Assembly: GCF_022352215.1 (NCBI RefSeq)
Contig: NZ_JAKRWF010000001.1
Location: forward strand, 1,364,001-1,428,000
DNA: 64,000 bases
Direction of reading: 5' to 3'
Origin: Flavihumibacter cheonanensis
GTDB taxonomy: Bacteria; Bacteroidota; Bacteroidia; Chitinophagales; Chitinophagaceae
In this document: positions 10,014 through 25,836 of the stretch, in pieces
Position numbering within the stretch: position 1 is the first letter of the stretch
How the letters are laid out: each line of letters opens with the position of its first letter
The notes under the pieces: model-generated
Told to the model about the DNA's origin: nothing
Seen by the model: the letters and a program-made list of their open reading frames with translations, nothing else
Databases searched by the model: none
Made by a program: the position numbers and the translations under genes

Positions 10014-10627
10014 ATCTTTTCGATAAAGTTTTTTAAAATCTGTTCTCCAACAGTCGCCGATTTTTCCGGGTGAAACTGTACGCCATAAAAATTATTACGG
10101 TGCAAGGCAGAACTATACGGCTTGAGGTAATCTGTTGTGGCAATAGTATCCGGACCAATCGCTGCATAAAAACCATGTACAAAATAACAATAGCTGTTTT
10201 CCGGCACTCCTTCAAAAAGCCGGGTCCGTAAATCAGTAATCGTATTCCATCCCATCTGTGGAATTTTATAGTTATGCACTTCCGCTTCCGGAAGGGCTGC
10301 TTTTAATGAATGAAAAGACTGAACATATTCTTCAAAAATTCCCAGGCATTCTGTATCGTTCTCTGCGGAATGTGTACACATTAATTGCATTCCCAGGCAG
10401 ATACCCAGTACAGGTTGCTGCAATTCTTTGATCAGCTGATCCAGTTTGCGTTCGCGCAGGTACTGCATAGCCGTACTGGCTTCTCCTACACCCGGAAAAA
10501 TAATTTTATCAGCTTTCCGCAGGACATCCAGATCATCTGTCACGGTTGCTGTTGCACCAATTCTTTCAAGTGCATAAAGTACACTCTGAATATTCCCTGC
10601 ATTGTATTTTACGATGGCTATATTCAT
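10010..10627 (-). CDS. hisH: Imidazole glycerol phosphate synthase, glutaminase subunit
   Basis: This class I glutamine amidotransferase supplies ammonia to HisF. From ATG 10627 it is 205 residues, starting MNIAIVKYNAGNI; an ATG two codons upstream (10633) is also possible. The nucleophile is C77 in GICLGMQ and the His-Glu pair is in VQFHPEKS near the C-terminus. It starts 9 bases after the trpA stop, so it is the junction where the tryptophan operon becomes a histidine operon. Its stop overlaps the decarboxylase start (ATGA). Confidence 0.96.
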   Translation of the reverse strand: MNIAIVKYNAGNIQSVLYALERIGATATVTDDLDVLRKADKIIFPGVGEASTAMQYLRERKLDQLIKELQQPVLGICLGMQLMCTHSAENDTECLGIFEEYVQSFHSLKAALPEAEVHNYKIPQMGWNTITDLRTRLFEGVPENSYCYFVHGFYAAIGPDTIATTDYLKPYSSALHRNNFYGVQFHPEKSATVGEQILKNFIEKI

Positions 10628-10636
10628 GCTCACAGA

Positions 10637-11404
10637 CTAAATTATTGTACTTAAAAATGCTTTGGTAACAGAACCTACATCACTTGTTCCTTCCAATGCT
10701 TTGATATAGGCAGTTCCAATGATGGCTCCATTTGCATGTGCACAGGCTGCATCAAAACTTTCGCGGTCCTTTATACCGAAACCAACCAATACGGGATTGG
10801 TTAACTGATAGGATTCCAGACGCTGCAAATAATCCTTCACACTAGTCATTTGTTTGTTGGATCCGGTTGTTGAGGAAGAAGAAACCGCGTATAAAAATCC
10901 GGTACTGAGACCATCCAGCTTTTTAACTCTATTTTCAGCCGTTTCCGGGGTTACCAGGAAAATAAAATCCAATCCATATTTTCTGATAATGGCGCCATAC
11001 TCTGATTCAAATTCATATTCTGGCAAATCGGGCAGAATTAACCCATCTACTCCAACACTTGCTGCATCTGCGCAAAAGCGTTCAAATCCATATTGCAATA
11101 CCGGATTCATATATCCCATCAGTATAACGGGAACAGTTATGCGATCCCGAAATCCATCCAGTTGTTCAAACAACCGCGAAATGGTCATACCATTTTCAAG
11201 AGCTATAGCACTGCTATGCTGAATAACAGGACCATCGGCGAGTGGATCACTATAAGGCATACCCAGCTCAATCAGGTCGGCCCCGTTTGCCTCTAAGGAT
11301 TCCATTACTGGCAGCGTGCTGTTGAGTTCAGGATAACCGGCAGTGCAGTATACATTTAATACCCGTTTATGCTTTTTTTGAAATAAACTTTGAATTCTGC
11401 TCAT
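10637..11404 (-). CDS. trpA: Tryptophan synthase alpha subunit
   Basis: The 255-residue TIM barrel cleaves indole-3-glycerol phosphate and hands indole to TrpB. The catalytic pair is E46 and D57 in LIELGMPYSDPLADGP. The phosphate-binding loop region VGFGIKDRESF is present. An acetyltransferase gene is wedged between trpB and trpA, 10 bases upstream of this start. The following gene, hisH, begins after only 9 bases and no terminator is visible, so transcription should continue into the histidine genes. Confidence 0.96.
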   Translation of the reverse strand: MSRIQSLFQKKHKRVLNVYCTAGYPELNSTLPVMESLEANGADLIELGMPYSDPLADGPVIQHSSAIALENGMTISRLFEQLDGFRDRITVPVILMGYMNPVLQYGFERFCADAASVGVDGLILPDLPEYEFESEYGAIIRKYGLDFIFLVTPETAENRVKKLDGLSTGFLYAVSSSSTTGSNKQMTSVKDYLQRLESYQLTNPVLVGFGIKDRESFDAACAHANGAIIGTAYIKALEGTSDVGSVTKAFLSTII

Positions 11405-11414
11405 ATCAATATTC

Positions 11415-11885
11415 TTAACTCGTCAGTATTTTTTCCATTTTAATATCAGATCTTTTGTAAATCGAATTACCAACCGGTATTTCAACAAATCCGAATTTCC
11501 TGTACAAATGAATGGCAGCTCCCAGTTTGGAATGAGAATACAACTGTAGCAGGTTGGCTCCCTTTTCTTTTGCTATTGCGATGGCATGCTGAACCAGCAA
11601 ATGTCCTGTATGACGGCCCTGAAAAGCTGTATCCACCGCCATTTTGGACAGTTCAAAACAATCGGCAGCGGATTTGATCAGCGCATAACAACCGATTACC
11701 TGCTCATTTAACAAAGCGAAATAGATAAATCCTCCTTTATCCAGGTAATAGGTACGAGGATTACTCAGCATTTCTTCATCCACCGGCTCCACTTCGAAAT
11801 AGGTTTCCAGCCAGGTCTCATTTAACCGTTTAAAATCGGGTGCCCAGCGATCTTCAAAAGGTTCTATCCTTATCATTTCTTTCAT
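11415..11885 (-). CDS. GNAT-family N-acetyltransferase between trpB and trpA
   Basis: The 156-residue protein has a GNAT fold with the acetyl-CoA loop FQGRHTGHLLVQHA and the C-terminal hallmark AIHLYRKFGFVEIP. No targeting signal is seen. Its ATG overlaps the trpB stop codon by one base and its stop is 10 bases before trpA, so it is co-translated with both tryptophan synthase subunits. GNAT proteins of this general type act on small amines or amino acids, or on protein termini. The substrate here is unknown. Splitting trpB from trpA is unusual because TrpA and TrpB form one complex. Confidence 0.85.
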   Translation of the reverse strand: MKEMIRIEPFEDRWAPDFKRLNETWLETYFEVEPVDEEMLSNPRTYYLDKGGFIYFALLNEQVIGCYALIKSAADCFELSKMAVDTAFQGRHTGHLLVQHAIAIAKEKGANLLQLYSHSKLGAAIHLYRKFGFVEIPVGNSIYKRSDIKMEKILTS

Positions 11886-13087
11886 CAGATGCCCGTCATT
11901 TCCATTTGTTTCATATAGGTGGCAAGATCTTTATCACCTCTGCCGCTCAGGCAAATCACTACCTGGTCTGTCGGTTTTAATGACAACTGAGACAGAGCGG
12001 AAAATGCATGTGCGGTTTCCAAAGCTGGAATAATTCCTTCTGTTCTTGCCACATCAAAAGCAGCACGCAGAGCATCCTCATCGGTTACAGCCAGGAAATG
12101 TCCTCTTCCACTATCAAATAAATTGGCATGCAAGGGCCCGATTCCCGGGTAATCGAGGCCGGCTGATATGCTATGCGGCTCCACCACCTGACCATCTTCC
12201 GTTTGCATAACCAGGCTCTTGCTGCCATGCAATACCCCCGGTTTACCCAGAGCCGTAGTTGCAGCAGACAGGCCACTGTTTACGCCATGGCCAGCCGCTT
12301 CAACTGCAACCAGTTGAACAGTCAGTTCATCCAGAAAATGATAAAAAGCACCTGCTGCATTACTTCCTCCACCTACACAGGCAATTACATGGGTGGGCAG
12401 CTCGGAACCGGTTTTTTCTTTTAGCTGCCAGCGGGTTTCTTCACTGATTACACTCTGAAACCTGGCCACCATATCCGGATAAGGATGAGGCCCCACCACA
12501 CTTCCTATAATGTAATGCGTGTCTGAAGGATTGTTGATCCAGTCGCGGATAGCTTCATTGGTAGCGTCTTTCAAAGTTTTACTTCCACTGGTGGCAGGCA
12601 CTACTTTTGCACCTAACATCCGCATGCGGGCAACATTGGGTGCCTGCCTTTCAATATCTTTTTCACCCATATAAACAATACACTCTACCCCTTTCAACGC
12701 GCAGACCGTAGCTGTTGCAACACCATGCTGCCCAGCACCAGTTTCCGCGATGATCCTGTTTTTACCCAGCTTTTGTGCCAGCAGGATTTGACCAATGGTA
12801 TTGTTGATCTTGTGTGCACCAGTGTGGCAGAGATCCTCCCTTTTCAGGTAGATATTGGTACCATGGGCAGCACTTAATCGTTTCGCAAAATAAAGTGGGG
12901 TTGGCCTTCCAACATAATCGCGCAGCAGGTCTCTGAACTCCAACTGGAAGGATGGCTCCTGCATGATTTCCAGGTAACGCGACTGTAATTCTTCCACATT
13001 CGGATGCAACATCTCTGGAATATAAGCACCACCAAATCGTCCATAGTAGCCGTGCACATCTGGCTGTTGATAGGTTTGCATATTCAT
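11885..13087 (-). CDS. trpB: Tryptophan synthase beta subunit
   Basis: The 400-residue PLP enzyme condenses indole with serine. The Schiff-base lysine is K93 in HTGAHKINN, and the phosphate-binding glycine loop is VGGGSNAAG. The long N-terminus ([18 protein letters not shown]) is typical of the TrpB1 class that pairs with TrpA. A Met at residue 3 is an alternative start. It lies 7 bases after trpF and overlaps the downstream acetyltransferase start by one base. Confidence 0.97.
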
Positions 13088-13094
13088 TTTCGTA

Positions 13095-13730
13095 TTAGTC
13101 GTTCAATTGTTTGATAAATTTTTGAACCATTTTCAAGTCTTTCACACCGGGACTTGTTTCGAACCGGCTATTAATATCCACAGCAAAAAGCGCTTTGGCT
13201 TCGGGTTGGGTTGAAAATTCTTTCAATGCACCCACATCATCCGGTTCAATTCCTCCACTCAGAAAATAAGGTTTTCCGATCTGTTGTGATTTCAACATGC
13301 TCCAATCGAATTTTTTTCCTGTACCGCCATAGCCCACTCCCATTGTATCAAAAAGAAACATATCACACACATCCAGATAGGGTTTGATCATCCATTCAAT
13401 GCTGTCGTTTTCGCTAAGTCGGAACGCTTTTACCACTGATACATAATCTGCTATTTTTTCGCAGTACTTTGGTGATTCATCCCCATGTAGTTGAACCATA
13501 TGAAGCCGGCATTCATCCACCATCTGAATCACTTCTTCCACACCCGAATTCACAAACACCCCCACTTTGTTGATCTTTTTTTCTTTTTTCAGTTCATTCG
13601 TTGTCAGGTACCGGAGCACATATCGGGGGCTCCTTGGATAAAAAATAAAACCGGCGAATGTAGCCCCCAGTTCCTCCAGTTGATCTACCTGTTGCAGCTG
13701 GGTCATACCACAAACCTTTACTCTCATCAT
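13095..13730 (-). CDS. trpF: Phosphoribosylanthranilate isomerase
   Basis: The TIM-barrel enzyme converts phosphoribosylanthranilate to CdRP. The family N-terminus VKVCGMT with its catalytic Cys follows two consecutive Met codons, and I chose the first (13730), giving 211 residues. An upstream in-frame ATG at 13772 would add a poorly conserved 14-residue tail. The catalytic Asp is in [17 protein letters not shown]. It lies 79 bases downstream of trpC, the largest gap inside the trp genes apart from the leader. Confidence 0.95.
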
Positions 13731-13809
13731 GCAATTTCTTTTTTTAAGTGTTAAGTTTTCTTCAATTGACATGTTAGTAGGTAATCACGGGAGTATCAGT
13801 CCCAGAGGA

Positions 13810-14604
13810 TTAACCAACTTTAGTTGTATTTAACTCCTGAATAAATAGTTCAAATGCTTTTGCAGGATCGGCAGCTTTCATAAACTGCTCTCCAATCAAA
13901 AACCCATCGAACCCATTTTCCCTGAACAGTTGAATAGTGGAAATTTTATCGATTCCGCTTTCTGCCACTTTAATAGCATGCGAAGGCAGTTTGGCTGCCA
14001 TCTCCAGGCTTTTTTCAATATTGACTTCAAAGGTTTTCAGGTTTCGGTTATTGATTCCAATGATGGGTGTAAACTCATTCACGTGTCCCAGTTCTTCCTC
14101 ATCGTGTAATTCCAGTAACACACTTAATTGCAGTTCAGCTGCGAGCATGGCCAATTTTCTTGTTTCTTGCGGTGTCAGGCAGGCTGCAATGAGCAGGATA
14201 ACATCCGCACCTATCGACCTGGCTTCATAAATCTGGTAAGAATCAATTATAAAATCTTTTCTTAGCAAGGGTATGTTCAGAGACCGTGCATCCATCAGAT
14301 CCTGGGAAGAACCTCCAAAAAATTCTGTATCTGTTAAAATAGAGATAGCTGATGCACCCAATCTGGCATAAGCTGCTGTAACATCCCGCAGATCCGCCGT
14401 TCCATTGATGATGCCTTTGGAGGGTGATTTCCGTTTGAATTCAGCAATGATGCCGGTTTTGGAAGGATCTTTTAAAAATTTAGCCAAAGAAAAAGTTGTT
14501 CTGTGAAAATGCTCTTTTTTTTCGAGTACATCCTGCGGTTGCCTGCGCTTACGCTCTTCTACTTCCTTTCGTTTGGCAGCTACTATAGTATCAAGAATAT
14601 TCAT
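13810..14604 (-). CDS. trpC: Indole-3-glycerol phosphate synthase
   Basis: The 264-residue TIM barrel closes the indole ring. The signature IIAEFKRKSPSKG places E55 and K57 at the active site, followed by the S-P-S motif. Further conserved segments are LLRKDFIID (catalytic Lys), LLELHDEEEL, GINNRNLKTFEV and VAESGI. It is a stand-alone enzyme, not fused to TrpF as in enterobacteria. It starts three bases after the trpD stop. Confidence 0.97.
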   Translation of the reverse strand: MNILDTIVAAKRKEVEERKRRQPQDVLEKKEHFHRTTFSLAKFLKDPSKTGIIAEFKRKSPSKGIINGTADLRDVTAAYARLGASAISILTDTEFFGGSSQDLMDARSLNIPLLRKDFIIDSYQIYEARSIGADVILLIAACLTPQETRKLAMLAAELQLSVLLELHDEEELGHVNEFTPIIGINNRNLKTFEVNIEKSLEMAAKLPSHAIKVAESGIDKISTIQLFRENGFDGFLIGEQFMKAADPAKAFELFIQELNTTKVG

Positions 14605-14607
14605 GCC

Positions 14608-15600
14608 TTATTGAAGTTCAACTAGTTTTTTAAGTGTGTTTCTGGCTTTTCCAGTTTCCAGGCTTTCAACGGCCGCATGGTAAGCATCTTCATAGGTCTT
14701 GTAATTGCCAGTGCTTTTCAGCGCCATCGCTGCATTCGCCAATACTACTGCATTCTGTGCCCAGCTGCCTTTTCCATCCAGTATTTTCAGGAAAATATTG
14801 GCTGCTTCCTCCACAGAATTGCCTCCGTAAATATCGGAAGGCTGGACCATTCTTTTACCCATTTGTTCAGGAGTAAGCAGTTGCTCTCCTTCATTGGTAA
14901 TTACTTTGGCATCCGATGTGAGGGATATTTCATCGTACCCATCCAGGCTGTGAATAATAGTAAAGGCTCCCCCGGTCTGCTGCAATAAATAATTATAGAC
15001 CCTCGCCATTTCAAGGCTATAAACTCCCACTACCTGGCAGGAAGGGGTGGCCGGATTTACCATCGGTCCTAACATGTTGAAAAAAGTACGCATTCCCAGG
15101 TTTTTCCGGATGGGCGCCACTATTTTCAGCGCAGGATGAAACATAGGTGCATGTAAAAAACAAATATTGGTTTCCGCCACTTCTTTTTGAAGGGCAGCCG
15201 GATCGTTTTTAAAGCGATATCCCAATTGTTCCATCACATTGGAAGCACCACTAATAGAAGAAGCGCCATAGTTACCATGTTTGGCTACCTTCTGACCAGC
15301 CCCTGCCACTATAAAACAGGCAAGGGTTGAAATATTAAAGGTATTCTTGCCATCGCCACCCGTACCTACAATATCAACGAGGTTATCTGCTTCCAGCCGA
15401 ACCGGAACGCAAAGCTCCAGCAAGGCATCGCGGAAACCCTGCAACTCTTCAATAGTTACACTTCGCATAAGGTAGACCGTCATGAATGAAGTGATTTCAT
15501 GTTCATTGTACAATCCCTTACCAATGTTTAGCAACACATCCTTTGCCATCGCCCTGCTCAGCGACTTGTGTTCAAATAAAAACTGTAATATCTTTTTCAT
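14608..15600 (-). CDS. trpD: Anthranilate phosphoribosyltransferase
   Basis: This enzyme transfers phosphoribose from PRPP to anthranilate. From ATG 15600 it is 330 residues, beginning MKKILQFLFEHKSLS. The PRPP-binding glycine loop VGTGGDGKNTFNIST and the anthranilate-site region VAKHGNYGASSISGASNVMEQLG are intact. In-frame non-ATG starts upstream would only translate a simple-sequence tract (GAGACGTCAGACG words), so the ATG is preferred. The gap to trpG is 38 bases and is made almost entirely of that tract. Confidence 0.96.
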   Translation of the reverse strand: MKKILQFLFEHKSLSRAMAKDVLLNIGKGLYNEHEITSFMTVYLMRSVTIEELQGFRDALLELCVPVRLEADNLVDIVGTGGDGKNTFNISTLACFIVAGAGQKVAKHGNYGASSISGASNVMEQLGYRFKNDPAALQKEVAETNICFLHAPMFHPALKIVAPIRKNLGMRTFFNMLGPMVNPATPSCQVVGVYSLEMARVYNYLLQQTGGAFTIIHSLDGYDEISLTSDAKVITNEGEQLLTPEQMGKRMVQPSDIYGGNSVEEAANIFLKILDGKGSWAQNAVVLANAAMALKSTGNYKTYEDAYHAAVESLETGKARNTLKKLVELQ

Positions 15601-15603
15601 TGC

Positions 15604-15645
15604 CTTTTTTTTTCGTCTCACGTCTGACGTCTCACATCTCACTTC
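15604..15645. repeat. GAGACGTCAGACGTGAGACG-type simple repeat between trpG and trpD
   Basis: Read on the - strand the tract is GTGAGATGTGAGACGTCAGA followed by CGTGAGACG and a run of A. The word TGAGACGTCAGACGT also occurs at about 30988-31004 downstream of an unrelated permease gene. Here it fills the trpG-trpD gap and covers the last codons of trpG. Confidence 0.6.
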
Positions 15646-16220
15646 CCCAACCAATTCCTCAGCATCTTCTCTCCATCTGGAGTTAACACACTTTCAGGAT
15701 GAAACTGCACACCTTGTACATCGTAGCTTTTATGCCGAAGTCCCATTATCTGTCCCGATTTATCCAATGCAGTAATCTCAAGGCAATCCGGCAATTCTTT
15801 ATCATCCACTACCCAGGAATGATACCTGCCTACTTCCAATGTGTCCGGAAGACCGGCAAATACATCCCCTTCTTTTTTCTCCCGATTTGCCACCCGCTGA
15901 ATTGGTGTAGCAACTCCATGATAAACATTCGCCAGGTTAATCAGTTTAGCACCAAAAGCTTCACCGATTGCCTGGTGCCCCAGGCATACTCCCAGGATAG
16001 ACTTGGTTGCTGCGTATTGTTTTATGAGCGGTATCAAACTCCCCGCTTCCGAAGGAATACCCGGACCAGGAGACAGAATAATCTTATCATAGTCGGCCGC
16101 CTTTTCCAGTGGCAGTTGGTCGTTGCGCACAACATCTACCTTCTCACCAGTAATTTTTTCAACCAGGTGTACCAGGTTATAGGTGAAGGAGTCGTAATTA
16201 TCAAAAACTAGAATCTTCAT
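15639..16220 (-). CDS. trpG: Anthranilate synthase component II (glutamine amidotransferase)
   Basis: This class I amidotransferase feeds ammonia to TrpE. From ATG 16220 it has 193 residues, beginning MKILVFDNYDSFTYNLVH, which is the family N-terminus. An upstream in-frame start at 16277 would overlap trpE and is rejected. The nucleophile is C79 in LGVCLGHQ and the partner dyad is H174/E176 in VQFHPES. It is not fused to TrpD. Homology also covers PabA, so it may serve folate synthesis too, but the position after trpE argues for tryptophan. Confidence 0.96.
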   Translation of the reverse strand: MKILVFDNYDSFTYNLVHLVEKITGEKVDVVRNDQLPLEKAADYDKIILSPGPGIPSEAGSLIPLIKQYAATKSILGVCLGHQAIGEAFGAKLINLANVYHGVATPIQRVANREKKEGDVFAGLPDTLEVGRYHSWVVDDKELPDCLEITALDKSGQIMGLRHKSYDVQGVQFHPESVLTPDGEKMLRNWLGK

Positions 16221-16251
16221 GTTAATTTTTGTACTTATGCTTTCATTGCGT

Positions 16252-17682
16252 TTAATGGATGGACTGGGCCAGTTCAATAGCTTTTTTCAGTGCTCCCAGT
16301 TTGTTATTTACTTCCTGCAATTCGCTGGCCGGCTGACTGGCGGCAACAACTCCGGCACCTGCCTGGTAGGTTAAGGTATTTTGCTTACTCAACAGGGTAC
16401 GAATCATGATGGCATGATTACAATTGCCATTGAATCCCATGAATCCAAGTGCCCCGCCATAAAATGAACGGGCAGTAGGTTCGAATTCATCAATCAATTG
16501 CATGGCCCGGATTTTAGGCGCTCCACTCAAGGTGCCGGCCGGAAAGGATTTTGCTAATAAAGTAAACGGATTGGTATCCTTTGGTACACGCCCGATTACT
16601 TCGCTCACCAGGTGAATTACATGGGAGAAATATTGAACCTGTTTATAGTGGGCAACTTCCACCTGGTCGCAGATTCTGCTCAGATCATTTCTAGCCAAAT
16701 CCACCAGCATTACATGTTCCGCATTCTCTTTTGCATCTGCCAGCAATTTTTCTGTCTCCTGCTGATCCAGCAGGTCATCACCACTTCTCTTGTAAGTACC
16801 TGCAATGGGATGAACAACAGCCTTTCCGTTATCGATAATAAGTTGCGATTCTGGAGATGACCCCATCAGTTTGTAATCGCCATAATCAAAAAAGAATAAA
16901 TAGGGTGAAGGATTTACACTTCTCAGCGCCCGGTATACATTGAATTCATCTCCCTTGAAAAGCTGACGAAAACGCCTGCTGACAACAATCTGAAATACAT
17001 CCCCCCGGTGGCAGGAACGAATTCCTTTTTTCACCATTTCCATGTATTCATCATCACTCATATTGGAAGACTCCGCACCATTCAGTTCAAACGGATAAAC
17101 CGGCACATCCTTGCCCCGGATCAACGATTCCAGCATATTGCTGTCTGACTCAATTCCATTGATCTTGTTTTCGCAGAGGTACAATTCATCTTTAAAGTGA
17201 TTGATGGCTATAACGTACTGGTATAACCGATAACGCATCAGCGGAATCGTTGTTTCAGTTGCTTTTTTTTCTGAAAAACGGATGGTATCAAAAAACTGAA
17301 CAGCATCATACGTGGTGTATCCAAACAATCCCTGAGCAAAACCTTTTATTTTATCTCCGGGCTCTACCACTTCAAATCGCTGCATGAAATTCCAGAGCTG
17401 ATCCGGCACTTCTTCCGGGCGCTGGATGGAAACCCTTTCAGGTGTTTGTCCCGGCAGTTTGTATTCGATGCGCTGCAGATCACTGATCTCCATACCTCCA
17501 ATTGCATTGATACAAATAAAAGAGTAACTATTATCCGCCGCATGGTGATCCGTACTTTCCAGCAGGATGGTATCACGAAACCGATCCCGCAGGCGGAGGT
17601 AAATTCCAACCGGTGTGTACACATCCGCCAGCATCGTTTTGACCGTTGTTTCGATTCGTATCTTCTTTTTTTCGTTGCTCAT
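16252..17682 (-). CDS. trpE: Anthranilate synthase component I
   Basis: The 476-residue protein makes anthranilate from chorismate. Near residues 40-43 it carries LLES, the element tied to tryptophan feedback inhibition in TrpE proteins. The C-terminal chorismate-binding domain shows HPIAGTYKRSG, VDLARNDLSRIC, PAGTLSGAPKIRAM and a final GAGVVAASQPASE. It is the first structural gene after the trp leader peptide and attenuator hairpin, whose stem ends about 30 bases upstream of this start. It is thus likely controlled both by feedback and by attenuation. Confidence 0.97.
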   Translation of the reverse strand: MSNEKKKIRIETTVKTMLADVYTPVGIYLRLRDRFRDTILLESTDHHAADNSYSFICINAIGGMEISDLQRIEYKLPGQTPERVSIQRPEEVPDQLWNFMQRFEVVEPGDKIKGFAQGLFGYTTYDAVQFFDTIRFSEKKATETTIPLMRYRLYQYVIAINHFKDELYLCENKINGIESDSNMLESLIRGKDVPVYPFELNGAESSNMSDDEYMEMVKKGIRSCHRGDVFQIVVSRRFRQLFKGDEFNVYRALRSVNPSPYLFFFDYGDYKLMGSSPESQLIIDNGKAVVHPIAGTYKRSGDDLLDQQETEKLLADAKENAEHVMLVDLARNDLSRICDQVEVAHYKQVQYFSHVIHLVSEVIGRVPKDTNPFTLLAKSFPAGTLSGAPKIRAMQLIDEFEPTARSFYGGALGFMGFNGNCNHAIMIRTLLSKQNTLTYQAGAGVVAASQPASELQEVNNKLGALKKAIELAQSIH

Positions 17683-17706
17683 AGTTGTTGATTTCCAGCA
17701 AAAATT

Positions 17707-17733
17707 AAAAAACCCCGATGGGTTACATCGGGG
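17707..17733 (-). terminator. trp attenuator terminator hairpin
   Basis: On the - strand CCCCGATG (17733-17726), loop TAACC and CATCGGGG (17720-17713) form a perfect 8-bp stem followed by TTTTTT (17712-17707). It stands between the trp leader peptide and trpE. The 5' arm can instead pair through CCCCG with CGGGG at 17781-17777, which lies inside the leader ORF just downstream of the Trp codons. Termination would then depend on where the ribosome stands. Confidence 0.85.
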
Positions 17734-17768
17734 CTTTAATTATGTCATCCTATACAATGGACACAGCA

Positions 17769-17831
17769 TTACAACACCCCGGAAGAGTTTGTATGCCACC
17801 ACCACTGAATAGTTTGAATGTTTTTTGTCAT
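17769..17831 (-). CDS. trpL: trp operon leader peptide with three consecutive Trp codons
   Basis: This is a 20-codon ORF, MTKNIQTIQWWWHTNSSGVL, followed by TAA. The three TGG codons occupy 17804-17796. It lies directly upstream of a terminator hairpin and trpE. A ribosome stalled on the Trp codons leaves CGGGG (17781-17777) free to pair with the 5' arm of the terminator. A ribosome that proceeds to the stop codon covers it and lets the terminator form. This is the layout of classical ribosome-mediated attenuation. The ATG is only 7 bases after a -7 box, so the mRNA may be almost leaderless. Confidence 0.85.
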   Translation of the reverse strand: MTKNIQTIQWWWHTNSSGVL

Positions 17832-17838
17832 ATCACTG

Positions 17839-17870
17839 CAAATATGAGGCACCAAATTGGAATGAACAAA
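17839..17870 (-). promoter_or_regulatory. Predicted trp operon promoter (Bacteroidota type)
   Basis: On the - strand TTTG (17870-17867) is followed after 20 bases by CATATTTG (17846-17839), one mismatch from the Bacteroidota -7 consensus TAnnTTTG. Transcription would begin about 4 bases further on, roughly 4 bases before the trpL ATG. Confidence 0.6.
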
Positions 17871-17904
17871 ACTTTTTTCAGTAGCTTACCTAAAATATCC
17901 GGTT

Positions 17905-18189
17905 ATGCTGATTCATCATACACAAAGAGATAGCAAAGGCGTATTTTATGTTGGTGATGGTGATTCCCCGATTGCTGAACTGGTATACACCAAACCGGCA
18001 TTTGATAAAATGATCCTGGAACATACGGAAGTTGCTGAAGAATTGAAGGGACAGAATGTAGGTTATCACCTGGTTGAAGCCGCTGTTGAGTATGCCCGGC
18101 AGCACCAGTTTAAAATTCTTCCGTTATGCCCCTTTGCTAATGCGGTTTTTAAAAAGAAACCTGAATACCAGGATGTATTAATGGACTAA
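17905..18189 (+). CDS. Small GNAT-like acetyltransferase (COG2388 / YjdJ type)
   Basis: The 94-residue protein matches the small Gcn5-related family (PF14542). It has an N-terminal beta hairpin with GVFYVGDGDSPIAELVYTK, then the acetyl-CoA segment VAEELKGQNVGYHLVEAAVEYARQH, and ends with the conserved ILPLCPFANAVFKKKPEYQDVL. These proteins bind acetyl-CoA, but substrates are generally unknown. It reads rightward, opposite to the flanking trp and his genes, and begins close to the trp promoter on the other strand. It is probably co-transcribed with the NAD(P)-binding gene 10 bases downstream. Confidence 0.85.
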   Translation: MLIHHTQRDSKGVFYVGDGDSPIAELVYTKPAFDKMILEHTEVAEELKGQNVGYHLVEAAVEYARQHQFKILPLCPFANAVFKKKPEYQDVLMD

Positions 18190-18199
18190 AATTAAAGTT

Positions 18200-18829
18200 A
18201 TGAAAGTTGTAATATTTGGAGCCACCGGCCAGGTAGGTCGTTATCTGGTACAACAGGCCATCCTGATGGGTCATCATGTAAGGGCTTTTGGCAGAAATGT
18301 ACATGAACTACCTGATGAAACACACCTGCTGGAGAAAATTAAGGGTGCCGTTTTTGATCCCGGTGAAGTATTCAACGCCATTAAGGGAACGGATGCTGTT
18401 TTAAGCGCATTGGGGGGTAGTTTTGATGGGACGGATAAAACCCGCTCTCTTGGGATTCGCAACATTGTTGAACAGATGAAAGCTTCCGGCGTGAAACGTA
18501 TTGTAGCCTTAGGAGGTGCTGGTGTACTGGATCATCCGGAAGGTGGATTGGCCATAGATCAGGAGTCCTACCCTCCGGAATATATTCCAGTAGGAAAAGA
18601 ACACCAGAAAGCCTGGGAAACCTTGGTAGACTCCGATCTTGAATGGACCTTTGTCTGCTCCCCGGATATCATTAATGCGGATGTTTCAGGCAGATTTCTG
18701 ACAGCAGTTAATCAGTTACCTGAAGGCGCAAAAGGTCATATTAATGCAGGCGACCTGGCACTTTGCATGCTACAGGAACTGGACAGAAAATCTCATATCC
18801 GGGAGCGGGTCGGTATTTCAGCCGTTTGA
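18200..18829 (+). CDS. NAD(P)-binding Rossmann-fold protein (NmrA/SDR-like)
   Basis: The 209-residue protein starts with a textbook dinucleotide-binding turn, VVIFGATGQVGRYLVQQAI. It continues through the atypical SDR/BLVRB-like domain (VLSALGGSFDGTDKTRSLG; VKRIVALGGAGVLD). It lacks a classical YxxxK catalytic pair, which fits the NAD(H)-binding, NmrA-like group. Its substrate or regulatory role is unknown. Its stop lies one base from the stop of hisB on the other strand, with no visible terminator, so converging transcripts could overlap. Confidence 0.85.
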   Translation: MKVVIFGATGQVGRYLVQQAILMGHHVRAFGRNVHELPDETHLLEKIKGAVFDPGEVFNAIKGTDAVLSALGGSFDGTDKTRSLGIRNIVEQMKASGVKRIVALGGAGVLDHPEGGLAIDQESYPPEYIPVGKEHQKAWETLVDSDLEWTFVCSPDIINADVSGRFLTAVNQLPEGAKGHINAGDLALCMLQELDRKSHIRERVGISAV

Positions 18830-18830
18830 A

Positions 18831-19976
18831 CTAAAGAATCCCTTTGGTGGATGGCAAGTAATTGCTGAAAGGATCACGCTTTACGGCCATCCGGACAGCT
18901 TTTGCAAATGCCTTGAATATGGCTTCTATTTTATGATGTTCATTCTCTCCGCGGCAGTAAATATTCAGATTGCATTTCGCTGCATCACTGAAGGATTTGA
19001 AAAAATGAAAGAACATTTCAGTTGGCATTTCACCGATTTTCTCACGCTTGAATTCTGCATCCCACACCAGCCAGTTACGTCCACCAAAATCAATCAGCAC
19101 TTTGGCTTCCGCTTCATCCATTGGTAATGCAAATCCATACCGCTCGAGCCCCTTTTTATCGGCCAGGGCTTTTGCAAAGGCTTCTCCCAATGCAATCCCG
19201 GTATCTTCGATCGTATGGTGTTCGTCAATGTGTAAATCACCGTTTGTTTCGACAGTAAGATCCAGTTTCCCATGCCTCGCGATCTGATCCAGCATATGAT
19301 CAAAAAAACCCAAACCCGTTTGGATTTTGGCTTTACCGGAACCATCCAGGTTCAACCCAATCCTGATCTTTGTTTCATTGGTATTGCGTTCATGTTCAAC
19401 TTTCCGTAATCCAAGTTTCAGGAAGGAATAGATTTCTGCCCAATCACAGGATTCAAGTGCTACAGTTGTTTCCCTTAACTCCATGGCTTTATCCTTGATC
19501 TCTGCACCACCCAGTTCAGGGTCAAGGTTTAACCAGATTGCTTTTGAGCCTATGTTTTTGGCCAGCTGGACATCTGTAATGCGATCACCGATTACATATG
19601 AATTTTCAAGATCGTATGCCGGATTATTCATGTAGTGAGTGAGCATACCTGTACCGGGTTTACGAGTAGGCAGGTTTTCATGCGGGTAACTTCTGTCGAT
19701 TAACACTTCCTTGAAAAAGATCCCTTCCCCTTCCAGACTTTTCATCACCAGGTTGTGAAGTGGCCAGAAGGTATCTTCCGGAAAACTGGCCGTTCCCAAT
19801 CCATCCTGGTTGGTAACCATTACCAGTTCATAATCCAGTTCACGGGCAATTCTTCCCATGTATTCAAACATTTTGGGATAGAAGGTCAGCTTGTCAAAGG
19901 AATCCAACTGATAAGTCGGAGGCGCCTCGTTGATCAGGGTGCCATCGCGATCGATAAATAAAACGCGTTTAGCCAT
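18831..19976 (-). CDS. hisB: Bifunctional histidinol-phosphatase / imidazoleglycerol-phosphate dehydratase
   Basis: The 381-residue fusion catalyses two histidine steps. The N-terminal HAD phosphatase (about 1-165) has the nucleophile motif [11 protein letters not shown] (D9, D11). The C-terminal dehydratase (about 185-381) has the metal-binding [14 protein letters not shown] and FGGRNW and a second His-rich segment [15 protein letters not shown]. The fusion occurs in enterobacteria and many Bacteroidota. It is the last gene of the his operon's first half. In the usual order hisH would follow, but here the next genes are on the opposite strand and hisH is about 8 kb away behind the trp genes. 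Confidence 0.97.
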
Positions 19977-19997
19977 AAGGGTTATTATCGATGAAAG

Positions 19998-21044
19998 TTA
20001 CTGATACTGTTTCAATGCTTCGATCAATTCTGAATTTTCTTTTTCCGTTCCTACTGTAATGCGAAGGCAATCGGCACAGAGAACAACAGATGATCGATCC
20101 CTCACCACAATGCCTTTATCCAGCAGGTATTGATATATTTTTTTCGCATCCCGGACTTTCACCAGGAGGAAATTTGCGTCAGAGGGATATACTTTCTGAA
20201 CGATCGCCAGGGATGGCAATTCACGCTCCAGCCTACCCCGCTCTTCCACCAACACCCGGATCATCTCATTTACCTGCTCCACTTCATCCAGGGCTTTTAG
20301 TACCAGCTCCTGGGATGCCTGGTTGATATTATAAGGAGGTTTCACCTTATTCATCACGTCAATGATTTCCTTGGATCCAAAGGCCATACCTACTCTCAGG
20401 GCAGCCAATCCCCAGGCTTTGGATAAGGTTTGTAGCACCACGAGGTTGGGATAGTCCTGCAGGTCAGCAAGAAAAGAACGTTGCCTTGAAAAGTTGATAT
20501 AAGCTTCATCCACTACCACAAGCCCGAAATAATTATTCAGCAGAGCTTCCACTGCACCCCTGTGCAAAGAATTACCTGTAGGATTATTTGGTGAGCAGAG
20601 AAAAATAATCTTGGTAAAATCGTCCACCGCTTCTTCCATTGCGGGAAGATCCAGTTGAAAATCCGGCGTAAGCGGAACTTTTTTGATTTGCACATTATTG
20701 ATGTGTGCACTTACCTCGTACATTCCATACGTAGGCGGTACAATCAGGATATTATCCATACCTGGTTCACAGAAGGCGCGGATCAGTACATCAATACATT
20801 CATCACTTCCGTTTCCAAGAAAAATATGTTCCGGCGTAACTCCCTTGATATTGGTGAGTTTTTCCTTTACGGCCATTTGCAAGGGGTCGGGATACCGGTT
20901 GTACCATTTCAACAGGGGTGAACCCAGTGAGTTTTCATTGGCATCCAGGTAAACACTGGCTTCTCCCTTGAACTCATCCCGCGCGGAGGAATAAGGTACC
21001 AGGTCTCGGATATTTGGCCTTAGTAATTCGTTCAGATTAAACAT
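19998..21044 (-). CDS. hisC: Histidinol-phosphate aminotransferase
   Basis: The 348-residue fold-type I PLP aminotransferase converts imidazole acetol phosphate to histidinol phosphate. The cofactor lysine is K209 in TLSKAWGLAALRVG, with SPNNPTGN and VVDEAYINF as the other PLP contacts. The N-terminal NIRDLVPYSSARDEF is typical of HisC. Its start overlaps the hisD stop by 8 bases, implying coupled translation, and hisB follows after 21 bases. Confidence 0.96.
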   Translation of the reverse strand: MFNLNELLRPNIRDLVPYSSARDEFKGEASVYLDANENSLGSPLLKWYNRYPDPLQMAVKEKLTNIKGVTPEHIFLGNGSDECIDVLIRAFCEPGMDNILIVPPTYGMYEVSAHINNVQIKKVPLTPDFQLDLPAMEEAVDDFTKIIFLCSPNNPTGNSLHRGAVEALLNNYFGLVVVDEAYINFSRQRSFLADLQDYPNLVVLQTLSKAWGLAALRVGMAFGSKEIIDVMNKVKPPYNINQASQELVLKALDEVEQVNEMIRVLVEERGRLERELPSLAIVQKVYPSDANFLLVKVRDAKKIYQYLLDKGIVVRDRSSVVLCADCLRITVGTEKENSELIEALKQYQ

Positions 21045-22320
21045 GGTTTTGCATTCTTATGGTTACTGCTTTGGCATGTGCATCCAATCCTTCTGCACCC
21101 GCCATTTCAACAACTGCGGGACCGATTGCCTTCAATCCTCCAGGGGAAAGTTCCTGGAATGTAATTTTCCTGACAAAGGAGTCTACACTCACCCCACTGT
21201 ACGCTTTGGCATAACCGTTAGTGGGGAGTGTATGGTTGGTACCGCTGGCATAATCGCCCACACTCTCGGGCGTAAGATGTCCTATAAAAACAGATCCTGC
21301 ATTCACAACTTTTTCTGCTATCTCAGTGCCCTGATCACTTGCCAGGATCAAATGTTCAGCAGCATAGAGATTCAATATTTCCAGTGCTTCTTCCTTATTG
21401 TTTACAACAATCGCAGAACTGTTTTGCAAGGCTTTTTCCGCAAGCTGCGCACGAGACAATTGTTCCAGTTGTTTTGTGAGTTCTTCGGAAACTTTTTCCG
21501 GCAGGTTTGCATCGGTGGTCACCAACAGCACCTGGCTATCTACTCCATGTTCGGCCTGGCTTAGCAAATCAGCGGCAACATACGCAGGATTGGCAGTAGC
21601 ATCTGCGAAAACAGCCACTTCAGAAGGACCGGCCGGCATATCAATTGCCAGGCCATCGCGTTGCACCAATTGTTTGGCGCAGGTTACATATTGGTTACCC
21701 GGACCGAAAATTTTATATACCTGGGGTATGGTTTCCGTACCATAAGCCATCGCAGCAATGGCCTGTGCTCCACCTGCTTTAAAAATGCAGGTAACTCCTA
21801 CCAATGAAGCAGCGTATAGTATGGCAGGATGAAGTTTTCCGGTTTTATCAGGAGGAGAACACAGAACGATTTCTTTACAACCAGCAATGGAAGCGGGTAT
21901 GCCCAGCATCAGGATGGTTGAAAAAAGTGGCGCCGTTCCTCCAGGAATATATAAACCAACCTTTTCAATGCCCACTGATTTGCGCCAGCATCGGATACCA
22001 GGCATGGTTTCGATGCTTTCAACAGGCTGCACCTGTGCCTGGTGAAAGCGTCGGATATTGGCAGCTGCCAGTTGCATGGCATCTTTAAGGGCTGGAGAAA
22101 CCAGGTTGGCGGCCTCCTGCTTTTCCTGCTCTGAAACTTCGAGTATATCCAATTGTACGCCATCAAACCGGGAGGTATATTCAAACAGAGCGGCATCTCC
22201 CCTGCGTTTTACTTCTGACAAAACTGTCTGTACGGCTGACTCGAGTGAGTAACTGTCCAGAACAGGCCTCGCCAACAGTGATGCATACTCGCTTTTTTCA
22301 GGATAGCGAACGATTTTCAT
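21037..22320 (-). CDS. hisD: Histidinol dehydrogenase
   Basis: The 427-residue zinc enzyme oxidises histidinol to histidine in two NAD-dependent steps. Visible signatures are [53 protein letters not shown] and the C-terminal [23 protein letters not shown]. It starts four bases after the hisG stop, and its end overlaps hisC. Confidence 0.97.
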
Positions 22321-22324
22321 ATAC

Positions 22325-23185
22325 TCAGATTATCATTTTTTCAATAGGAACTACCAGGATTCCCTGTGCACCGGCTGCTTTCAGTTGTTCAATGATATCC
22401 CAAAACTGATTTTCGCTCAGCACACTGTGTACACTGCTCCAACCGGGTTCTGCCAATGGTAATACAGTAGGACTTTTCATGCCAGGTAACAGGGAAATGA
22501 TTTCCTCCAGTTTTTCATTGGGGGCATTCAGCAAAACATATTTATTGTTCTTCGCTTTTTTAACCGCCCGGATCCTGAACAGCAAACGCTCCAGTACCTG
22601 CATTTGTTCAGCGGATAAATTTTCGTTCCGGATCAAAGCCGCCTGGCTTTTTAACACCACTTCCACTTCTTTCAGCCCATTCATAAAAAGCGTGGAACCG
22701 GAGCTAACCAGGTCAACAATTGCATCTGCCAGTCCTATGCCCGGAGCGATTTCCACCGAACCACTGATTTCATGTATTTCAGCCTTCACTCCTTTCGACT
22801 GAAGAAAGTTCTCAACCAAAACCGGATAACTGGTAGCGATGCGTTTTCCCTGTAAGGATGTTACCCCGGAATACTCATCTTTTCTTGCAACGGCTATGCT
22901 TAACCGACATTTTCCAAAGCCCAGCCCTTCTACAATCTGTACCTTTTTATTTTTTTCATACACCACATTCTCGCCTACGATACCAATATCTGCCACCGCA
23001 TCCTCTACATATTGTGGAATATCGTCGTCCCGTAAAAAATAAATTTCAAGCGGAAAGTTTTCAGCTTCGGTTTTCAGTTTGTTGATACCGTTCTTAACAT
23101 CAATACCGCAATCCTTCAACAATTTGACAGAATCCTCATAAAGGCGTCCGCTTTTCTGGATAGCGATTTTTAATTTCTGTTGCAT
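22325..23185 (-). CDS. hisG: ATP phosphoribosyltransferase, long form
   Basis: The 286-residue protein is the first committed histidine enzyme. The two-lobed periplasmic-binding-protein-like catalytic core spans about 1-210, including VEIAPGIGLADAIVDLVSSGSTL for PRPP binding. The C-terminal about 75 residues (LEEIISLLPGMKSPTVLPLAEPGW) are the ACT/PII-like regulatory domain of the long HisG_L form, so it should be inhibited by histidine directly without HisZ. It is the first structural gene after the hisL leader and attenuator hairpin, which ends 18 bases upstream. Confidence 0.97.
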   Translation of the reverse strand: MQQKLKIAIQKSGRLYEDSVKLLKDCGIDVKNGINKLKTEAENFPLEIYFLRDDDIPQYVEDAVADIGIVGENVVYEKNKKVQIVEGLGFGKCRLSIAVARKDEYSGVTSLQGKRIATSYPVLVENFLQSKGVKAEIHEISGSVEIAPGIGLADAIVDLVSSGSTLFMNGLKEVEVVLKSQAALIRNENLSAEQMQVLERLLFRIRAVKKAKNNKYVLLNAPNEKLEEIISLLPGMKSPTVLPLAEPGWSSVHSVLSENQFWDIIEQLKAAGAQGILVVPIEKMII

Positions 23186-23203
23186 ACAATTAAATAAAAT
23201 AAA

Positions 23204-23230
23204 GAGGGCTTACCGTGCAGGTAAGCCCTC
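23204..23230 (-). terminator. his attenuator terminator hairpin
   Basis: On the - strand GAGGGCTTACC (23230-23220), loop TGCAC and GGTAAGCCCTC (23214-23204) make a perfect 11-bp stem, followed by TTTATTTTATTT before hisG. The 5' arm segment GCTTACC (23226-23220) can instead pair with GGTAAGC at 23267-23261, which overlaps the stop codon of the leader peptide. Terminator formation therefore depends on ribosome position. Confidence 0.85.
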
Positions 23231-23262
23231 AAATGTTATCAATAGACATCAAACATCCTCGC

Positions 23263-23316
23263 TTACCGCGCTGGCAGTAAAACATGATGATGATGAATGT
23301 TGCTGTTTCTTTTCAT
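23263..23316 (-). CDS. hisL: his operon leader peptide with four consecutive His codons
   Basis: This is a 17-codon ORF, MKRNSNIHHHHVLLPAR, ending in TAA. The four CAT codons occupy 23295-23284. Its stop codon lies inside GGTAAGC (23267-23261), a copy of the 3' arm of the terminator. A ribosome at the stop masks this copy and the terminator forms. A ribosome stalled on the His codons about 17 bases earlier leaves it free to act as antiterminator. This is a classical histidine attenuator layout. The ATG lies 8 bases after a perfect TAnnTTTG box. Confidence 0.88.
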   Translation of the reverse strand: MKRNSNIHHHHVLLPAR

Positions 23317-23324
23317 TACGGATG

Positions 23325-23357
23325 CAAAAATAGGGGTATCAATTAATATGGACCAAA
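23325..23357 (-). promoter_or_regulatory. Predicted his operon promoter (Bacteroidota type)
   Basis: On the - strand TTTG (23357-23354) is followed after 21 bases by TATTTTTG (23332-23325), a perfect match to TAnnTTTG. The start of transcription would lie about 4 bases downstream, leaving only about 4-5 bases before the hisL ATG. Confidence 0.65.
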
Positions 23358-23397
23358 TTTTTTAAGATCCCGTAAATTAGACCCATAACACACACAT

Positions 23398-25836
23398 ATG
23401 AAAAAACTGCTTCTGTTAGTATGCATGGTCGGTTTCCGATTCCTGGTGATTGCCCAGGAAGAAGCAACCTACCAGACCCCACCAAAGGAGATCATGGACC
23501 TGGTGATGGCACGCCCAACTCCCATGGTCAGTTTTAATGCGAAAGCCGACCATATGGTTTTAATCCAGCGTGCCAGTATGCCCTCAGTGGAAGAACTTGC
23601 ACAACCTGAATACAGGATCGCTGGCTTACGTATGAATCCGGCAAATTTTGGTGGAAGTCGCCAGACTTATTTTAATGACCTGCAGGTAAAAGAAGTAGCT
23701 ACAGGTAAAACAACAGCTATAACCGGCTTGCCTGCTGACCTGAGAGGTACTTCCATGCAATGGAGTCCTTCCCAGCAGCGTTTCGCTTTTCTGCAATACA
23801 GTAATAGTGGTATTGACCTATATACAGTTGATCTACTGAATGCAACTGCTAAGAAAGTTAATCAGCACCCATTAAACGATGTATTGGGCACCAGCTTTAT
23901 CTGGCAGAATGATTCCACCATTATTTACAAAGCTGCTGTAAATGCCGGTAAAAAAGAACCAGCCAGACCAGCTGCACCATCCGGACCTGTAATTCAGGAG
24001 TCGTTAGGAAAAGCTGCTGCATCCAGGACCTACCAGGACCTGATCAAGTCGCCCTACGATGAATTATTATTCGAGCATTTTTCGAAGGGGCAGTTATACA
24101 GGTTGCAGTTAGGATCAGGAAAAGAAGAGAAACTGGGTGAAGAAGCTATTTATCGCAGCTTTTCTATTTCTCCCAATCAGGAGTTCCTATTAACTGCAAT
24201 CCTCGAAAAACCGTTTTCTTATCTTGTTCCCTGGAGTGGATTTCCCACCACTTATGCGGTCTCCAACCTGAAAGGAGAATTGGTAAAAACTATTGCCAAC
24301 AATCCTTCTTCTGAGGGAGCCCCTATTGGTTTTGATGATGTGGTACCCTATCCGCGAGGTATTAACTGGCGGGATGATCAACCTGCAACCATCTATTATG
24401 TTCAGGCATTGGACAACGGCAAGGGAAGAGTCAAATCCGAATTCCGGGATGGAGTGTATTGCATCGATTTGATGAAAGAAAAGGAACCCAGACTCTTTAC
24501 CAAAACATCCAAACGATTCAGGGGCATTGAATGGGGGAACGACCAGGTAGCGCTGCTTTATGAAGGTATGAATGCCAACAGGAGTTACCGGATCAACCTG
24601 CTGAATCCTGTGACTGGTAAACTTGACAGCCTGCAGGAGCGAAGCAGCAACGACCAATATAACGACCTTGGGCAACCGATAACTACCCGGAATCAGTATG
24701 GCCGCAATGTTATCCAGGTATTGAAGAACGGATCTATCCTGCTGACATCCAATGGGGCATCTGAAAAGGGAGATTTGCCCCTCCTGCGTTCCATGAATCT
24801 CAAAACAAGGGCCGTTAAAGACCTCTGGAGATGCCAGGAAGGATACTTTGAATATGTGGTTCGGGTGCTGGATGCCGAAAAAGGTGTTTTTATTACACGC
24901 AGGGAAAGTCCAACTGAAACGCCTAACTATTATGTAAGAAATCTAACTAAAAAGATAGCCCCTCTTGCACTGACTCAATTCACCAACCCTTATGCACAGC
25001 TGGAAGGGATCAGCAAAGAAAAGATCAAATATAAAAGAGCAGACGGCATTGATCTTACAGCTACCCTCTACCTTCCAAAAGGGTATGACAAAACAAAGGA
25101 TGGTCCTCTGCCGCTGCTGATCTGGGCTTATCCAAGGGAATATAAATCTGCAGCGGATGCTGCCCAGGTAAGAGGTTCCCAATACACTTTCCCAACCATT
25201 TCTTATGGCAGCCCGATTTTCTGGGCAACACAGGGATACGCGGTAATGGACAACGCGGAAATGCCAATCGTTGGGGAAGGAAATAAAGAACCCAATGACG
25301 CCTTCATACCCCAGTTATACCTGAATGCTCATGCTGCTATTCAGGCTGCTGCCAAAATGGGTGTGGGAGATAGTACCCGGGTTGGAGTTGGTGGCCACAG
25401 CTACGGCGCATTTATGACAGCCAATCTTCTTGCACATACCAATTTATTCAAGGCTGGTATTGCGCGTAGTGGTGCCTATAACCGTACCCTTACACCATTT
25501 GGATTTCAGGCTGAAGAGCGTACGTACTGGCAGGCCCCGGAAGTCTATTTTAATATGAGCCCTTTCAGTTTTGCAAATAAGATCAAAACACCCATCCTTT
25601 TGATTCATGGTGAGATGGATAACAACCCAGGCACTTTCCCCATTCAGAGTGAACGACTTTACAATGCGATCAAGGGACATGGCGGCACAACGCGTTATAT
25701 TTCACTCCCGTATGAAAGTCATGGCTATGCAGGTAAAGAAAACATCCTGCACATGCTGTGGGAACAACACCAGTGGCTTGAAAAATTCGTAAAACAGGCT
25801 AAGTCCTCAACCGGAGACGGAAAGAAAGCATTCTAA
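23398..25836 (+). CDS. Secreted S9-family prolyl oligopeptidase-like peptidase
   Basis: The 812-residue exported serine peptidase has a signal peptide ending near LVIAQ (about residue 20), then a beta-propeller-like region up to about residue 540. A C-terminal alpha/beta hydrolase follows. The nucleophile is S668 in GGHSYGAFM, the Asp is in LIHGEMDNNPG and the His in YESHGYAG. It resembles Bacteroidota dipeptidyl-peptidase-like S9 enzymes, sometimes called glutamyl endopeptidases. The exact specificity is not readable. It is divergent from the his operon. Confidence 0.88.
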   Translation: MKKLLLLVCMVGFRFLVIAQEEATYQTPPKEIMDLVMARPTPMVSFNAKADHMVLIQRASMPSVEELAQPEYRIAGLRMNPANFGGSRQTYFNDLQVKEVATGKTTAITGLPADLRGTSMQWSPSQQRFAFLQYSNSGIDLYTVDLLNATAKKVNQHPLNDVLGTSFIWQNDSTIIYKAAVNAGKKEPARPAAPSGPVIQESLGKAAASRTYQDLIKSPYDELLFEHFSKGQLYRLQLGSGKEEKLGEEAIYRSFSISPNQEFLLTAILEKPFSYLVPWSGFPTTYAVSNLKGELVKTIANNPSSEGAPIGFDDVVPYPRGINWRDDQPATIYYVQALDNGKGRVKSEFRDGVYCIDLMKEKEPRLFTKTSKRFRGIEWGNDQVALLYEGMNANRSYRINLLNPVTGKLDSLQERSSNDQYNDLGQPITTRNQYGRNVIQVLKNGSILLTSNGASEKGDLPLLRSMNLKTRAVKDLWRCQEGYFEYVVRVLDAEKGVFITRRESPTETPNYYVRNLTKKIAPLALTQFTNPYAQLEGISKEKIKYKRADGIDLTATLYLPKGYDKTKDGPLPLLIWAYPREYKSAADAAQVRGSQYTFPTISYGSPIFWATQGYAVMDNAEMPIVGEGNKEPNDAFIPQLYLNAHAAIQAAAKMGVGDSTRVGVGGHSYGAFMTANLLAHTNLFKAGIARSGAYNRTLTPFGFQAEERTYWQAPEVYFNMSPFSFANKIKTPILLIHGEMDNNPGTFPIQSERLYNAIKGHGGTTRYISLPYESHGYAGKENILHMLWEQHQWLEKFVKQAKSSTGDGKKAF

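Follow-up and report, generated by a model that had tools for sequence, protein, structure and literature searches.

A very probable ribosome-mediated attenuator, with a leader mRNA predicted to be near-leaderless, upstream of trpE in Flavihumibacter cheonanensis and other Chitinophagaceae

The trp operon of Flavihumibacter cheonanensis is very probably controlled by a ribosome-mediated transcription attenuator, which best explains a short leader region on the minus strand of the window (the whole stretch of 64,000 nucleotides from contig NZ_JAKRWF010000001.1 that was analysed). The original prediction had placed a promoter, a 20-codon ORF with three adjacent TGG codons, a CGGGG copy and a terminator with a T run upstream of trpE. 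Direct reading of the sequence located the complete trp leader architecture, with every element where it had been placed (the ORF at 17831-17769 and its Trp codons at 17804-17796). The attenuation reading is supported, and a protector hairpin, a predicted near-leaderless start, a his-operon leader and the relationship to the Rfam family RF01692 are added here. The features are as follows.

17867..17870, minus strand: -33 promoter element TTTG (consensus TTTG/TAnnTTTG, as quoted in PMC7366714 and PMC6847099)
17839..17846, minus strand: -7 promoter element CATATTTG, matching TAnnTTTG at 7/8 positions with one mismatch
17833..17834, minus strand: predicted transcription start, 2-3 nt before the leader ATG, from the spacing given for F. 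johnsoniae in PMC6847099
17769..17831, minus strand: leader ORF MTKNIQTIQWWWHTNSSGVL, with ATG at 17831, twenty sense codons and stop TAA at 17771-17769
17796..17804, minus strand: three Trp codons TGG TGG TGG, read directly from the sequence
17777..17781, minus strand: antiterminator core CGGGG, placed by sequence, position in the family and folds
17729..17781, minus strand: antiterminator hairpin (segments 2:3), CGGGGU with GCCCCG at 17734-17729, -19.3 kcal/mol
17729-17733, minus strand: CCCCG in the terminator 5' arm, letters checked
17745..17817, minus strand: protector hairpin (segments 1:2), formed between the HTNS codons, together with part of the Trp codons, and a stretch that surrounds the stop and continues beyond it
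17709..17737, minus strand: intrinsic terminator (segments 3:4) AAAGCCCCGATG-TAACC-CATCGGGGTTTT, -17.6 kcal/mol, followed by a T-rich stretch
16252..17682, minus strand: trpE, first gene of the regulated operon, from the ORF list and domains
10637..16277, minus strand: remaining trp operon (trpG, trpD, trpC, trpF, trpB, a GNAT gene and trpA), named after the Pfam domains

The two promoter elements, TTTG and CATATTTG, are separated by a spacer of 20 nt. The trpE gene of the window shares 99% identity with its F. fluminis counterpart, and a GNAT acetyltransferase gene lies between trpB and trpA (11415-11885, minus strand). Behind the operon lies a further group of genes (10633-6038, minus strand). 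In it, hisH (named by NCBIfam) starts 3 nt past the trpA stop and is followed by ORFs identified by eye, namely a PLP decarboxylase gene and, after a gap of 427 nt, ORFs resembling hisA, hisF and hisIE. Half of the his pathway is located here and may be under Trp control.

In the proposed mechanism, RNA polymerase would start 2-3 nt before the leader ATG, so that the first ribosome, independently of any Shine-Dalgarno site, would load right at the 5' end or beside it. With Trp-tRNA in short supply, this ribosome would stall on the three Trp codons and leave CGGGG free just past its leading edge, whereupon CGGGG would pair with CCCCG of the terminator 5' arm and transcription would continue into trpE. 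With ample Trp-tRNA, the ribosome would reach the stop and cover CGGGG, allowing the terminator to form. Should no ribosome load, a hairpin between the Trp and HTNS codons and the stop region would hide CGGGG, making termination the default outcome.

The folding energies of both structures, a check suggested in the original prediction, were computed as -19.3 kcal/mol for the antiterminator and -17.6 kcal/mol for the terminator. For the stalled states a ribosome footprint was adopted in which the RNA is free from 13 nt after the first base of the A-site codon. With the ribosome on any of the three Trp codons and the polymerase just past the 5' arm, the antiterminator is formed in the computed fold, and its core is the anticipated pairing of CGGGG (17781-17777) with CCCCG (17733-17729). 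With the ribosome at the stop, the terminator alone remains. The models thus agree with the claim that stalling on the Trp codons would free CGGGG and that a ribosome at the stop would abolish the pairing. In the computed fold without a ribosome, the Trp codons pair with the region around and after the stop, which would hide the antiterminator G's, and the terminator forms. Once the whole terminator has been transcribed, the fold is the terminator again for stalls on the first and second Trp codons, and the antiterminator persists for the third; since the terminator is favoured at that point for the first two, the order of folding must decide. The computations hence describe a mutually exclusive antiterminator that would be freed by a stall, although the signal is weak in many single loci. 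The intrinsic terminator sits between the leader ORF and the first gene, as in an attenuator. Its predicted length of 8 bp holds for the core, CCCCGATG/CATCGGGG, but the terminator scan gave a full stem of 12 pairs when the A-U flanks are counted.

The proposed alignment of upstream regions across Chitinophagaceae was then drawn from at least 585 relatives found, of which the best 80 loci were analysed; one (L080) lacks upstream DNA, leaving 79 usable; to this set one leader was added, and four of its starts were assigned manually. Both the Trp leader and the terminator are kept in 79/79. A short ORF with codons for the end product therefore precedes the biosynthetic operon in every usable relative, as in ribosome-mediated attenuators: 68 leaders carry WWW, five have two Trp codons (L065, L073, L076, L077 and L079) and six have one (L055, L060, L063, L067, L068 and L070). 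The original prediction had named loss of the Trp codons with retention of the terminator as the pattern that would speak against it; at least one Trp codon is present in 79/79 and at least two in 73/79. The six single-Trp leaders read GWH and retain a GGGG core and the terminator. Short leader ORFs of such kind may well escape annotation. An NCBIfam search with the leader peptides returned no match and is uninformative at 20 residues. A genome pattern search for further near-leaderless Trp leaders was too loose, with 113 matches against 55 in the backward control; among the matches listed from it, inspected by eye, an in-frame triple TGG after an ATG occurs only at the trp locus.

The leader search favours Trp ORFs, so controls are needed. 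In a survey of 247 genomes of the phylum, trpE was matched in 211 and upstream DNA was available for 60, namely 45/55 at family, order and class level and 15/155 others. By the strict criterion a Trp leader was found in 51/60 trpE upstream regions, 0/60 on the opposite strand and 3/1200 mononucleotide shuffles; a looser criterion (WW or WxW) found it in 57/60, the shuffle control covering the strict one. A terminator follows the leader in 54 of these 57 loci, as against 4/570 shuffles, and the script detected none after the Trp leaders of L087, L115 and L138.

Among the 79 relatives, the terminator was recognised by script in 76 and by eye in three, and an alignment of 68 of them shows double changes at 6/9 consensus pairs. 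The zero terminator counts for L041, L081 and L082 in the family fold test stem from hand-set arms and are not meaningful. RNAalifold on the alignment (A1) showed the terminator as the sole structure, probably because the SGVL and RGL forms carry the core one column apart and because the alternative structures are mutually exclusive.

Evidence for the antiterminator comes from position, partner swaps, energies and covariation. Shuffled linkers pair with the terminator 5' arm in 77% of cases, which makes a pass/fail antiterminator test weak (61/79 expected by shuffle), and protector pairing is likewise expected from shuffles in 69/79; the bare existence of these pairings is thus weak evidence. 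The relatedness of the loci moreover inflates all antiterminator and terminator tests. With this in mind, a G-core is present in 68/79 loci, 13-19 nt past the last Trp codon (sd 0.98), the sd of its distance to the stop being 2.74. It is found in all three reading frames (38/17/13), pointing to conservation of RNA and not peptide. When partners were swapped among 76 loci, the own antiterminator:terminator pairs summed to -1027.8 kcal/mol against -897 (sd 17), with 0/5000 permutations as good, and the own partner was better than the median foreign one in 52/76. The stalled fold is stabler than shuffles with a median z of -2.1 (z<-1.5 in 59/79), and the protector fold with a median z of -2.35 (z<-1.5 in 63/79). 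Participation in the protector hairpin is probably why the non-Trp codons HTNS...GVL/RGL are conserved.

Compensatory change in the antiterminator is partial. Double changes exceed shuffles at 4/11 positions (reached by 30, 1, 5 and 20 of 1000 shuffles, uncorrected), and the other 7/11 show no clear excess. In an anchored pair count over 62 distinct rows, paired cells total 483, compared with a shuffle mean of 464.8 and a best shuffle of 485. The clearest cases are L056, L031, L039, L042 and L058, and the duplex of a single locus beats shuffles at p<=0.05 in just 34/76. The G-core is absent from 11/79 loci, among them the Chitinophaga-type leaders L074-L076, L078 and L079, which have a different, GCTGTTACACAGC-like terminator; measured against the median foreign partner, pairing is slightly stronger in two of these five and no stronger in the other three.

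The position of the promoter bears on where the message begins. In 72/79 loci the leader start is preceded by a -7 box at a distance of 4-9 nt (exactly 7 nt in 43), compared with 130/3800 dinucleotide shuffles. Outside the 72, L034 also has its box at 7 nt, L016 starts at a contig end, L012 shows no more than GATATTCG, a box is absent nearby in L045, and the gap is 17, 19 and 31 nt in L051, L078 and L079, respectively. In F. johnsoniae, transcription starts 4-5 nt after the -7 element (stated in PMC6847099). Combined with this distance, the box position predicts a 5' UTR of 0-5 nt, suggesting that the trp leader mRNA is near-leaderless, its 5' end falling at or a few nt from the start codon. 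The spacing, taken by itself, fits the leaderless-mRNA class.

The same geometry recurs before the his operon of the window.

23332-23206, minus strand: his-operon leader MKRNSNIHHHHVLLPAR with four His codons, ATG at 23316 and stop at 23265-23263

This leader is built like the trp leader, with a box 8 nt before the ATG, a terminator at 23228-23206 and a GGTAAGC copy across the stop as antiterminator copy. hisG was found in 64 family genomes, and 34/35 of the upstream regions examined carry a His leader, the sole exception (L182) having just 173 bases of upstream sequence. The box lies at 4-10 nt in 26/35, a count favoured by the choice of the His start nearest to near-leaderless spacing.

An attenuator working as proposed could, however, be transcribed from a start further upstream, in which case CATATTTG would not be the -7 box in use and the mRNA would not be near-leaderless. 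We regard this as rather unlikely. It would accommodate the first base of the box, which is C rather than T in the window (17846) and in 51/76 family loci with a box, and which perhaps makes for a weaker or differently tuned promoter; T is mostly present at this position in His leaders. It would also fit the three long gaps in the family and the mixed spacing across the phylum, where the box lies at 4-10 nt in 25/57 leaders, at 16-19 nt in 11 and elsewhere in six, with no box in 15. In the same genome, leaders precede ilvD (Ile/Val-rich; L156, 558-454, minus strand), thrA (Thr-rich; L158, 2644-2591, minus strand) and pheA (Phe/Tyr-rich; L160, 397-302, minus strand), each followed by a terminator-like hairpin by eye. 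In all three cases the 50 nt next to the ATG are free of a -7 box; this argues against a general rule of near-leaderlessness, and the claim is accordingly narrowed to Trp and His leaders. Against the upstream start stand the excess over dinucleotide shuffles in the family and the spacing shared by the His leaders. In addition, among the 26 window ORFs preceded by 60 nt or more, only one has a comparable box at 4-10 nt, though 16/26 show no box at all, making this base rate rough. Among the three Bacteroidota species whose published maps are considered here, short 5' UTRs are uncommon, yet Trp and His leaders share the near-leaderless geometry: according to the portions of the reports considered here, 87% of F. 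johnsoniae transcripts with a probable promoter have leaders >10 nt (PMC6847099), leaderless mRNAs make up 5.5% in F. psychrophilum (PMC9723704), and ~3.7% of 5' UTRs in B. thetaiotaomicron are <10 nt (PMC7366714).

It is highly improbable that the Trp-rich ORF is incidental and that the terminator acts constitutively, as a 5' terminator or transcript-end signal that senses nothing. The terminator is indeed the most strongly conserved structure, and both strands score as terminator-like. However, it sits after the leader promoter. Going upstream, the first gene end on this strand is that of hisB at 18831, ~1 kb before that promoter, with two opposite-strand ORFs (17905-18189 and 18200-18829) in between, so the terminator is not positioned as the end of an upstream gene. 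A signal of this kind would also leave unexplained the Trp codons in all usable relatives and in 57/60 regions across the phylum, and their replacement by His codons before hisG in 34/35. Control at the leader by a protein or a tRNA-binding RNA (TrpR, TRAP or T-box) is scarcely credible and was set aside for these three kinds, though a regulator of another kind may act here: the two weak PF01371 matches in the genome, one barely above the cut-off (27.5 vs 27 bits), both lie inside ORFs that by eye resemble IS30-type transposase starts and that we take to be IS30-like transposases, TRAP was found in 0/1 genome, and no T-box matched at E<=1 in window positions 9000-25000.

Ribosome-mediated attenuation of trp operons is known in several forms. 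The E. coli trp attenuator comprises Trp codons, protector, antiterminator and terminator, and the window leader would work in the same way as this leader (RF00513 Trp_leader); unlike the E. coli leader as commonly described, it has three adjacent Trp codons, an antiterminator core inside the ORF and a near-leaderless start by prediction, and no TrpR was found. The window scores 17.5 bits against RF00513, short of the gathering score of 41. Sinorhizobium meliloti is an alphaproteobacterium. Leaderless short ORFs are also said, by the title of Canestrari 2020, to be cysteine-responsive attenuators in mycobacteria, and on that title they differ from the window leader in organism and amino acid. 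The Trp attenuator RNA of S. meliloti trpL begins at the ATG of the leader ORF and is leaderless (as stated in PMC7298713); its sequence is different, and its 5' end is known, whereas that of the window is predicted. In the same phylum as the window, PMC9723704 reports "strong clues" for leader-peptide attenuation upstream of amino-acid operons of Flavobacterium psychrophilum and structured 5' elements upstream of pheA and hisG, and the parts of it considered here do not mention a Trp leader or leaderless leader ORFs.

The closest known relative is RF01692 (Bacteroid-trp), listed in Weinberg et al. 2010 (PMC2864571, in the part considered). It resembles the window in preceding trpE in Bacteroidota, in having a Trp-codon leader with a hairpin over the Trp codons and in aligning over its full length, but it ends in a GGCTTGTC terminator where the window has CCCCG arms. 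The window scores 24.3 bits, below the gathering score of 49. None of the 79 sampled family genomes reached this cut-off (strict filters lose weak matches), the best being 41.7 bits in one genome, and leaders of another family (f5, presumably Flavobacteriaceae) passed it in 11/20 sources in one search and 2/20 in another. The kind of element is thus known, and its Chitinophagaceae form falls outside the Rfam model. Matches to XIST, mir-586 and rnk stay below their gathering scores, coincide with either the terminator or the leader in full, and were ignored. Among the literature matches listed, no description of a Chitinophagaceae trp attenuator was found, and, in the portions considered, none combines a Bacteroidota promoter, a near-leaderless leader ORF and attenuation.

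These results extend the Bacteroid-trp attenuator to Chitinophagaceae, where the Rfam model misses it in the sampled genomes, and supply a concrete four-segment mechanism for it. The attenuation mechanism itself is textbook; the less usual aspect seems to be a message that apparently starts almost at the leader start codon. Bacteroidota do without Shine-Dalgarno sites. We put forward, as a proposal with evenly balanced prospects, that throughout Chitinophagaceae and partly in the wider phylum Trp and His attenuation works through near-leaderless leader ORFs, in which a 5'-terminal start codon would let the first ribosome load as the RNA emerges and so solve the timing of coupling without a Shine-Dalgarno site. 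The conserved promoter-to-start spacing makes this a testable case, namely that Bacteroidota may use near-leaderless mRNAs for Trp and His attenuation at the least.
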